Shown here: positions 44,514-52,605 of the stretch, one piece after another | Numbering within the stretch: the stretch's first letter is position 1 | Layout: the number at the start of each line of letters is the position of its first letter | Assembly: GCA_013204025.1 (NCBI GenBank) | Contig: JABMOW010000104.1 | Location: 54,801-118,800 of the forward strand | DNA: 64,000 nucleotides | DNA from: Fidelibacterota bacterium | Lineage (GTDB): Bacteria > Fidelibacterota > Marinisomatia > SCGC-AAA003-L08 > JACNLC01 | Direction: 5' to 3' | Made by a program: the position numbers and the translations under genes | The notes under the pieces: model-generated | Told to the model about the DNA's origin: nothing | The model's input: only the letters and a program-made list of their open reading frames with translations | Database searches by the model: none

Positions 44514-45506
44514 TTAACCCAGTATTAACTCGACTAATTGAATGATGTCCAGGATATCAATGACTCCGCTGTCATCTAGGTCACCAGCGCATAAGGTAGC
44601 ATAATCAGGATCTACTCCCGAGAGAATGATCTGTACAATAGTTACAATATCCAGCACATCAATCAGACCGTCGTCAGTAATTTCACCGGGTATGCAGTTT
44701 TGTGCGGAAATGAGTAATTCTTGTACCAGCAGACTCATTGCATCTCCATCGTATTCGTTATTTGCATATTGCACAATTCCCTGCTGATCGATGATGAAGT
44801 CTCTTGGAAACGGTGATATCCCACCAGGGATATAAAACTGATTATAAACCGACCAAGTGTCCTGTAACAAAGGGTACGTGAGACCATTGTCAATGCCAAA
44901 CTGTTGAATAGCGTCCACAGGTTGATTTGCAATGCCCACAACGATAAGGTCCTCTGTAGAAAATGGTTGCCAGATTGTAGCTTGAATGTCCGATAACTCC
45001 GGAGCACACACAGGTCACCAAGGTGCAAAAAATGCAATTACCACTACTTTCCCCAACTGATTGCTCAAATTGAATATACCTGAACCGTTGGCGACTATGG
45101 GAAGTGAGAAATCCGGTGGAGATTCTCCAACATTGATCCCGGTGTAATTACCAGTCAATTGAATACCCACGATCCCTTCATCAGGATCGTTAGTTTGAAA
45201 ATTATAAACGCCAGATGCATTTGGACTATTCCCGGTGTATACCACATCTAGCGAATAATTATGATATGGAACCAAGGGTTCCAGTTGGGTCTCTGCAGAA
45301 AAATCTTCGTGAGTAATATACGTCCAGTCGAATTCAAGTATATTGCTTCCGTTATTGGCAAGTTCAATAGTAATTGTATCGCTTTCTCCCTCTTCCATAA
45401 ATGGAAAATTGATTTCTCGAATACTCAGATCAATATCAGGTCCATCAACCGGTCCAAAATCAAATACCTGCAGATATCGCCATTCTGCTGAGTAAGATAA
45501 CATCAC
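44514..45506 (-). CDS. candidate selenoprotein: redoxin/TlpA-like domain with in-frame TGA (45015-45017) at the first Cys of CxxC, plus C-terminal dockerin-like repeats
   Basis: ORFs 45015..45506 and 44514..45011 share a frame and are separated only by TGA CCT; read-through FFAPW-U-PVCAPELSDIQATIW; dockerin-like DLDDSGVIDILDIIQLVELILG. Confidence 0.65.
44983..45010 (-). promoter_or_regulatory. candidate bSECIS hairpin downstream of the TGA codon
   Basis: RNA UGUGUGC-UCCG[GAGUUAU]CGGA-CAUUCA: 4-bp upper stem, bulged C, then lower stem with one mismatch; loop contains GU about 18 nt after UGA. Confidence 0.45.
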
Positions 45507-46404
45507 CGTTCGCTTCGGCAGCCATCACTCTTCCCCCGGTATTCTTAAATCCGACCTTTTCCAAGGCGGTTCCATTCCACTCCAAAACTTCCAGATCATC
45601 CCAATCAGAGACAGCGACTCGGTCATTTCCCATCAAACCAATACGGGAAGCAAACCCTGTAGTATTGTAATTTGCAATTAACTGGGGTGCAACAGGCTCA
45701 CTGATATCGAATAAATCAACTCCGGCATTACCAACCGCCACAAAAAGTCTCCCATTTTGCATCCTCACATCTTTGGCTGCTCCTGAAGTTCCAACAGTAG
45801 TTAAAAGTATGGGGTTTTCCGGATCCTGAAAATCAATTACAGAAACACCTGCTTCTCCATCTGCGACGTACGCCAGCTCTCCATTGAGAGCAGTCGCCCA
45901 TGCATTTTCGGTGGTTACCTGCGACAGGAATTCAGGCTCCTGATGATTTGTAATATCATAAAATAGTACTCCACTTGTGTGTGCTGATACCAATAGAGTT
46001 GTGCTGTTTGCCCGTATATGCTCGTATGAAAAGGGATCGGATGTACCGATGTATGTTATTATATATGGATTAGATGCGTCGGATAGACTGACAATCACCA
46101 TGCCGTCTGCCCGGCCTGACCCGTATGCAACCAAACCCTTAATCTCCCAGTTATATGCCCGGTTGTATTCAAATTCCGGAATGGATATGCTGGAGATCTG
46201 AACCGGGGAAAGTGGATCACTCACGTTAAAAATAGCGGTTCCACCCAGACCACCTGGGATCATCATGATGTTTCCAGCAATTTCCACATCAAGCAATTCA
46301 TGATTCGAAGGGTCAATGCGATTCGCCAGTGTGAGATTTTTCCCGAACATGGGTTGCATAATCATCAAAGTAAGTGATATCTGAAGTAAGTTTTTGAACC
46401 TCAT
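45460..46404 (-). CDS. LVIVD-repeat (beta-propeller-like) secreted protein; N-terminal part of the redoxin/dockerin protein, apparently split by a frameshift near 45490
   Basis: Signal peptide; repeated VYVADGEAGVSVIDFQDPENPILL-type blades; continues after a 1-nt frame change as EWRYLQVFDFG. Confidence 0.8.
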   Translation of the reverse strand: MRFKNLLQISLTLMIMQPMFGKNLTLANRIDPSNHELLDVEIAGNIMMIPGGLGGTAIFNVSDPLSPVQISSISIPEFEYNRAYNWEIKGLVAYGSGRADGMVIVSLSDASNPYIITYIGTSDPFSYEHIRANSTTLLVSAHTSGVLFYDITNHQEPEFLSQVTTENAWATALNGELAYVADGEAGVSVIDFQDPENPILLTTVGTSGAAKDVRMQNGRLFVAVGNAGVDLFDISEPVAPQLIANYNTTGFASRIGLMGNDRVAVSDWDDLEVLEWNGTALEKVGFKNTGGRVMAAEANGDVILLSRMAISAGI

Positions 46405-51023: not shown

Positions 51024-51584
51024 TTAATAATGATATCCTTCACCTGGATCATTTTCTAAACCGACAACCAAAGCCAATACAATACGGTTGACGAAATTAA
51101 AATAAGCGATTACCAGTGTTGCATCCAGAATGGCAGAATCCAACAAACCCACATTTCGTAAATTTATTGTCAAATCTTCCTTTGACGAATTTTCAGGATG
51201 AGATGTAAGTTTAGTTGCGAATTCACACAGTGCCCTTTCCCTATCATTTAAGTCAGCAGGGATAATATCATTTCTTAACAAATTTACTTTGTTTTCATCT
51301 TTCCAATAATGGTTTAATGCAGCGGAATGATGTATTTGGCAATACTCACAACCGTTTGATGCCGAAACAACCACAGCCATCATCTCTCTTTCGGCCCGTG
51401 AAAGTTCTGATTTTGAAAACATAATTTCCATGTAAAGGTCGATATGTTTTACAATACTTTCCGGGCGCAGACTTTGTATCATGTGTACGTCCGCCAGCTT
51501 ACCCCGCTTTGTAATTAATTCATCATAAATGTCTTTGAGCCTTCCAGTAGCTTCTTCGTATGATATTACTTTGATTTTACTCAT
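51024..51584 (-). CDS. carboxymuconolactone decarboxylase/AhpD-like peroxidase-related protein
   Basis: SRAEREMMAVVVSASNGCEYCQIHHSAAL. Confidence 0.88.
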   Translation of the reverse strand: MSKIKVISYEEATGRLKDIYDELITKRGKLADVHMIQSLRPESIVKHIDLYMEIMFSKSELSRAEREMMAVVVSASNGCEYCQIHHSAALNHYWKDENKVNLLRNDIIPADLNDRERALCEFATKLTSHPENSSKEDLTINLRNVGLLDSAILDATLVIAYFNFVNRIVLALVVGLENDPGEGYHY

Positions 51585-51593
51585 GATATGTTT

Positions 51594-52148
51594 TTATGGG
51601 ATGTTGGCAATTATGTCCGAAACGGTTGACCGTTTTTTATAGTCAGAATCAAAATGCCGCCAAATAATCTTGCCATCTCCACCAATTATAAAAGTTGCGG
51701 GAATGGGTAATCGCTGACTATCATCAGAATGCGCTTTCTTTAAATTTGCTCTTAGAATTGTATTATACATGGTTGTTAAGATTCGATCAGGCTTGAAGGT
51801 TACGTCAAAAAGGTCGGATATTTTATATCCTTCATCATAAAGTAGGGAAAATGATGCATGAGATTTCTCTGCAGTGCGTTTTATAAATTCGGATTTTTCA
51901 GGTGAAACTGCAATTACGCTTGCTCCTTTATCATAAATCAACTGCAGTTTGTTTTGTAAATGCCTTAAATGTTTATTGCAAAATGGACACCATTGTCCCC
52001 GATAGAAAATGATCACAACCGGACCCTTTTTCAATGCGTTGCTCAATATAAAGGTTTGATCGTGAAGATCCAATGCAGTGAAGTTTTCTACACTATCGCC
52101 AACTTGTAATCCATTGGCTTCCTTCACAGACTTATAATTTGTTTGCAA
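51594..52148 (-). CDS. peroxiredoxin-like (AhpC/TSA) protein
   Basis: GDSVENFTALDLHD, VIIFYRGQWCPFCNKHLRHLQ. Confidence 0.9.
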   Translation of the reverse strand: MQTNYKSVKEANGLQVGDSVENFTALDLHDQTFILSNALKKGPVVIIFYRGQWCPFCNKHLRHLQNKLQLIYDKGASVIAVSPEKSEFIKRTAEKSHASFSLLYDEGYKISDLFDVTFKPDRILTTMYNTILRANLKKAHSDDSQRLPIPATFIIGGDGKIIWRHFDSDYKKRSTVSDIIANIP

Positions 52149-52605
52149 TGACTTTTTTTCCTAACTCCAAAAATTGTTTTGGATTATGATAACCGGATGT
52201 CTGGTTGGATAAACTTCCATCCGGATTTAAAAAAACGAAGGTTGGATAGCCTCTCACACCATATTTTTTGGCCAACTCAATTCCCTCACCTTTTTCGCCA
52301 TCAACTGCAATGTTGATAAATGTTAAATCATAGAATTTAGCAATTTCTGGATCAACAAATACATTTGCTTTCATTTTTTTGCAATATCCACACCAGCTTG
52401 CTGAAATATCAAGAAATACAGGTTTGTTTTCCTGTTTTGCTAAAGCCAATGCTTTGTTCCAGGATCCGTTATAAAATTGAATTTCTGAAGTGTCCGTATC
52501 GGAATTCTTATTTCCAGCGCATTGTGCGGAAGCGAACATGACCAACGTCATGATCAAAGTGGTAATAATCCCAATTTTAAATATCCGAAATATTTTATTG
52601 TTCAT
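52132..52605 (-). CDS. exported thioredoxin-fold protein (DsbD-gamma/Thioredoxin_7-like)
   Basis: PVFLDISASWCGYCKKMKANVF, VRGYPTFVFLNPDG. Confidence 0.9.
   Translation of the reverse strand: MNNKIFRIFKIGIITTLIMTLVMFASAQCAGNKNSDTDTSEIQFYNGSWNKALALAKQENKPVFLDISASWCGYCKKMKANVFVDPEIAKFYDLTFINIAVDGEKGEGIELAKKYGVRGYPTFVFLNPDGSLSNQTSGYHNPKQFLELGKKVIANKL

Follow-up and report, generated by a model that had tools for sequence, protein, structure and literature searches.

The minus strand of the window, the whole 64,000-nucleotide stretch of DNA that was analysed, carries three open reading frames (46404-45460, 45506-45015 and 45011-44514) that are pieces of one gene (Table 1). The second and third lie in the same frame and are parted only by a TGA and then CCT, as the first-pass annotation had described. 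The first and second are split by one extra T (45494/45495). That annotation had also warned of an apparent frameshift near 45490; it is real in the assembly, and L017 and L019, two intact relatives, continue without interruption to SAEWRY where the window copy has the surplus base. Intact relatives are single frames of 596-740 aa. The window gene is broken by this one +1 frameshift and by the candidate selenocysteine (Sec) UGA, and the frameshifted copy, as assembled, would give no full-length protein.

Table 1. Features of the gene, with positions in the window and the basis of each assignment
Feature	Position	Strand	Basis or content
Whole gene	44514..46404	-	signal peptide, LVIVD propeller, Ig-like domain, UxxC redoxin, dockerin-like tail
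Signal-peptide-like start (MRFKNLLQISLTLMIMQPMFGKN) and LVIVD beta-propeller (N-terminal part)	45498..46404	-	Pfam LVIVD 46 bits, cut-off 20.2
Surplus-T site (TT, +1 frameshift relative to intact relatives)	45494..45495	-	comparison with relatives
Ig-like (HYDIN/choice-of-anchor D) linker domain	45180..45440	-	Pfam, relatives
AhpC/TSA-redoxin domain (Trx fold), holds U-P-V-C	44766..45131	-	Pfam AhpC-TSA 62.8 bits, cut-off 26
Putative UGA selenocysteine codon	45015..45017	-	conserved TGA at the same column in orthologs
SECIS-type hairpin UCCGG-AGUUA-UCGGA, 5 bp	44989..45003	-	conservation, RNAalifold
C-terminal dockerin-type repeats	44517..44693	-	by sequence in the window copy

Domain architecture and fold of the redoxin

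Read through the UGA, the product is ...GKVVVIAFFAPW-U-PVCAPELSDIQ..., or locally AFFAPW-U-PVCAPELSD. The UGA is the first position of a thioredoxin-fold UPVC motif; the proposal that it stands where the first Cys of a CxxC motif belongs was confirmed, with the resolving Cys intact. The signal peptide was assigned by eye. Pfam bore out the suggested LVIVD/redoxin/dockerin architecture and added an Ig-like domain in between, with a T9SS tail taking the place of the dockerin in many relatives. The HYDIN_VesB_CFA65-like_Ig model is above its cut-off in L017 and L035 and weak in the window copy. Dockerin_1 likewise exceeds its cut-off in relatives (L017, 30.5 bits; L024, 29.7 bits), and L026, L035 and L045 end in Por_Secre_tail (T9SS) instead. 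As to features of T9SS cargo, Por_Secre_tail occurs in many relatives and the window copy has its dockerin-like tail; the window genome encodes the T9SS translocon protein SprA (608 bits).

An AlphaFold model of the window-copy redoxin had a mean pLDDT of 80, with most of the redoxin core above 84. This domain is closest to 2ls5, ResA and DsbE-type proteins, with 2ls5 and ResA (1su9) matched by Foldseek. A full-length model of the relative L066 (mean pLDDT 83) comprised a propeller, for which structural matches were found, Ig-like strands, the redoxin and a helical dockerin tail. No NCBIfam model claims the whole protein.

The redoxin could instead be a peroxiredoxin-type peroxidase. AhpC-TSA is its best Pfam match, the Foldseek matches also include the peroxiredoxins AhpE and Bcp, and Sec often boosts peroxidases. 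However, the Thr of the TxxC motif of a typical peroxiredoxin, located three residues ahead of the peroxidatic Cys, is replaced by the presumed Sec of UPVC in 44/44 sequences, ResA is the strongest NCBIfam subfamily (yet below its cut-off), and ResA/TlpA-type structures top the sequence search. We therefore consider a peroxidase rather unlikely and regard the domain as more probably a ResA/TlpA-like thiol-disulfide oxidoreductase.

Conservation of the UGA codon and selection on both sides of it

We searched 120 relatives with a redoxin-domain query in which Cys was written at the site, a search that favours Cys forms. It returned 32 orthologs, each with exactly one TGA. Among the 30 that were translated, the UGA always fell at one column, within FF-x-x-x-U-P-V/A-C-x-P-E-L/F-S-D. 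Extending the search to 245 genomes of the phylum gave 48 orthologs in 47 genomes, including two families from outside the class of the window genome, and exactly one TGA stands at the site in 48/48. The motif is UPVC, with UPAC in two sequences.

A second search was blind to the site: a profile restricted to the propeller and Ig region was run on 84,980 GTDB genomes, with recall limited by its single seed pattern. It recovered 27 loci, of which 27 have TGA and 0 have Cys; 24 are labelled Neomarinimicrobiota or Marinimicrobia and three are labelled less precisely. Alignment of homologs at this column, which had been proposed as a check, thus returned TGA throughout, and neither the phylum-wide search nor the site-blind GTDB scan yielded a Cys ortholog within the family. 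The best Cys matches (~33% identity, G083:C14 and similar) fuse a GH1 beta-glucosidase to a redoxin with CSVC and belong to a different family. These fusions are odd in themselves: three of them in family f13 (L057, L058 and L060, at G083:C14, G062:C40 and G105:C28) join a GH1 beta-glucosidase-like part, named by sequence, to a Cys (CSVC) redoxin in ~620 aa. On these comparisons, the in-frame UGA of the LVIVD-redoxin gene almost certainly encodes Sec.

Downstream of the UGA, dN/dS was 0.05-0.39 in the 12 pairs with a usable estimate, similar to the 5' part. These alignments indicate purifying selection both before and after the codon. Further inactivating mutations, which might have been expected in close relatives of a decaying gene, were looked for and none was seen.

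Since bSECIS-dependent recoding generally competes with release factors, the UGA might mainly act as a stop, so that most of the product would be a propeller-Ig protein and Sec read-through would yield the lesser share; both products could be functional. This reading is improbable, because purifying selection on the downstream redoxin and tail is about equal to that upstream and the T9SS or dockerin tail is present only on the long product. Much less probable still is that the gene is an ordinary Cys redoxin in which decay or sequencing errors produced both the TGA and the frameshift, a caution raised by the first-pass annotation. The one frameshift in the window copy and the state of the genome (3.15 Mb, a draft of 163 contigs, 88% complete) speak for it. 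Against it, the same TGA recurs in every ortholog across many independent assemblies, the region downstream is under purifying selection, and the window copy differs from its relatives as intact copies differ from one another, in divergence rate and codon-position pattern and in both halves of the gene. The caution is thus refuted for the TGA and may still hold for the frameshift alone. Since the window copy diverges as intact copies do, the frameshift most likely arose either in the assembly or by mutation very recently, and we continue to read the UGA as a Sec codon.

Hairpin and selenocysteine machinery

No sel genes had been seen in the window, and a search of the whole genome was proposed; it located all four. 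The tRNA-Sec scores 65 bits and ARAGORN agrees, SelB scores 350 bits with SelA (identified by sequence) immediately upstream, and SelD scores 379 bits and has its own in-frame UGA. This SelD (L131) is itself a UGA-containing selenoprotein (MSSGAG-U-ACKLG), with the UGA at the known UxxK site of SelD.

Use of UGA as a sense codon throughout the genome (for example for Trp or Gly) would also account for read-through here, but we dismiss this: TGA terminates 10/32 long ORFs of the window and is therefore not reassigned, each ortholog redoxin match has a single TGA that is always at a redox-active position, and the genome has tRNA-Sec, SelA, SelB and SelD. Neither frequent in-frame TGAs in housekeeping genes nor a UCA-anticodon tRNA other than tRNA-Sec has so far been seen.

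SelB or tRNA-Sec was found in 47/47 carrier genomes. In the first 31 carriers, SelB is present in 25 and the remaining six have tRNA-Sec; in 16 further carriers, tRNA-Sec is present in 12 and the other four have SelB. Because all six genomes that lack SelB have tRNA-Sec, the missing SelB probably reflects genome incompleteness. The reduced genomes of family f6 lack both SelB and orthologs, and no tRNA-Sec was found at gathering score in the four f6 genomes checked.

In 44 distinct sequences, (U)CCGGAGUU(D)UCGGA stands 11 nt after the UGA, and the hairpin is unchanged in 43/44 save one loop position. RNAalifold, unaided, returned a 5-bp UCCGG/UCGGA hairpin with the loop AGUUD, which a G-U pair closes. 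The partners are 99.5% paired, against at most 70% in slid controls. Codon choice is fixed as well: in the first 30 sequences, Pro is always CCG (background 19%), Glu always GAG (26%) and Ser always TCG (9%), giving log10 p of about -76 from per-gene codon usage, ignoring phylogeny. The codon before the hairpin is GCT, AGT or GGT in 43/44, so the residue varies among Ala, Ser and Gly and the last letter is T throughout. The loop starts 16 nt after the UGA, with G at its second position; this layout presumably agrees with the bacterial SECIS model in the literature, close to the shortest distance that the model allows.

The hairpin had first been proposed as UCCG-GAGUUAU-CGGA extended by an outer UGUGUGC/CAUUCA pairing. 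The inner part is present and its UCCGG/UCGGA stem is conserved; the outer pairing is not, as relatives differ at silent positions within it. Compensatory base-pair changes were sought among the distinct ortholog sequences and none was seen, because the hairpin hardly varies. A loose pattern search of the genome matched exactly only in this gene and gave 79 near matches (26 for a reversed-pattern control). The sole one-mismatch match lacks a TGA, so the pattern search yielded no further selenoprotein. A scan of the window at Rfam gathering cut-offs gave no match. A hairpin this nearly unchanged across the phylum is a clean pointer to what the SelB of the phylum recognises.

Proposed function, gene neighbours and related families

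The comparative evidence makes it very probable that the product of the gene is a secreted selenoprotein with several domains and that the hairpin directs Sec into the UPVC motif of its ResA/TlpA-like redoxin. SelB with Sec-tRNA would bind the UCCGGAGUUDUCGGA hairpin 11 nt past the UGA, and Sec would be inserted as the attacking residue of UPVC. The signal peptide together with the dockerin or T9SS tail makes a location at or outside the outer membrane most likely, where the beta-propeller and Ig domains would anchor the protein. Its activity in that place would be disulfide reduction or exchange, in which Sec would serve as the nucleophile and the Cys downstream of it would resolve the reaction. 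The earlier description as a Sec-containing secreted thiol-redox protein therefore stands for Sec on comparative evidence, and its enzymatic part is something we infer; an extracellular thiol-disulfide reductase or exchange role is the somewhat favoured assignment.

In several lineages, a DUF3179 protein (267 bits) adjoins the selenoprotein gene. Other neighbours in several lineages are an unassigned outer-membrane-like CCSL-motif protein, a protein of the Thioredoxin_2/DsbH type, or another redoxin, which bears a T9SS tail. These neighbours, conserved in relatives, are not adjacent to the gene in the window. DUF3179 is a listed selenoprotein family (PMC13188914), and its copies near the present gene family have Cys, not Sec. 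The neighbourhood suggests an extracytoplasmic thiol-redox module. A further possibility, which we put forward tentatively, is that the family is obligately Sec-dependent (genomes either keep the Sec form or yield no copy, and no replacement by Cys was seen) and works in a T9SS-exported outer-membrane module with DUF3179, the CCSL protein and Trx-fold partners.

Two other arrangements were observed. The window itself encodes a DsbH-type thioredoxin, a WCPFC redoxin and an AhpD-like protein at 51027-52605 on the minus strand, ~5 kb upstream of the gene and all with Cys. In one genus, arylsulfotransferase-like (ASST) proteins that carry dockerin tails are encoded in tandem directly upstream of the selenoprotein (L070-L072, L076). 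Because ASST enzymes elsewhere depend on partners dedicated to forming disulfides, these neighbours may have a thiol-redox link.

Bacterial UxxC redoxin selenoproteins were already known, as the first-pass annotation held: Prx-like thiol:disulfide oxidoreductase/Redoxin families (PF00578 or PF08534) are described in PMC13188914 (Table 1) and PMC2398784. Like these, including GOS Prx-like 1 (PMC2398784), the window family has a Trx-fold UxxC redoxin and a SECIS after the UGA and comes from marine bacteria; unlike them, it is fused behind an LVIVD propeller and Ig domain and carries T9SS or dockerin tails. GOS Prx-like 1 comprised 2,740 Cys homologs and 225 Sec forms (PMC2398784), whereas no Cys ortholog was found in the window family. 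Short GOS reads may have caught this redoxin domain without its architecture.

The Omp28-related selenoprotein NF045500 (GOS_C) is also a marine, apparently secreted UxxC Trx-fold protein, but the window protein does not match that model (NCBIfam cut-off 200 bits). WAxxUGC_long (NF041054) is a ResA-like selenoprotein as well; it has a UGC motif, and the window protein scores 13-17 bits against its cut-off of 300. ResA/TlpA thiol-disulfide oxidoreductases (1su9, 2ls5) share the fold and active-site placement, but are Cys proteins, typically membrane-anchored or periplasmic, and have neither propeller nor T9SS tail.

A search of open-licence papers found no treatment of Neomarinimicrobiota selenoproteins or of LVIVD, dockerin or T9SS selenoproteins. 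This is a previously uncatalogued family of secreted Sec redox proteins in Neomarinimicrobiota, an ocean-dwelling phylum. UxxC redoxin selenoproteins on their own have precedents; what is new is the architecture of propeller, Ig, redoxin and secretion tail, the failure to find Cys orthologs, and the fixed SECIS. Standard gene calling ends at the UGA, so that a phylum-wide marine protein family is read as two fragments. Many Cys homologs exist for almost all selenoproteins (PMC12013277); a family of 48 Sec forms with no Cys counterpart would let nature itself show under what conditions Sec is indispensable. The family would also exemplify selenium use outside the cell.

A second family of secreted redoxins was seen at L061-L065 and L093-L110 (for example a 505-aa minus-strand frame of L062), with IWINLFTSWUPSC..EAP. 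Its members are ~280-530 aa long, often have dockerin-like and T9SS tails, and mix Sec and Cys forms. The Sec forms have a CGGAGGCTCCG hairpin, and the UGxC members have TGGAGGCTCCA, a compensatory change. This separate family matches NF045500 Omp28_seleno in part (L062, 126 bits, under the 200-bit cut-off). One contig that carries the LVIVD selenoprotein also has, at L147, another UGA redoxin gene (INFFTSWUSFC, hairpin GCGGAGGTTCCGC).
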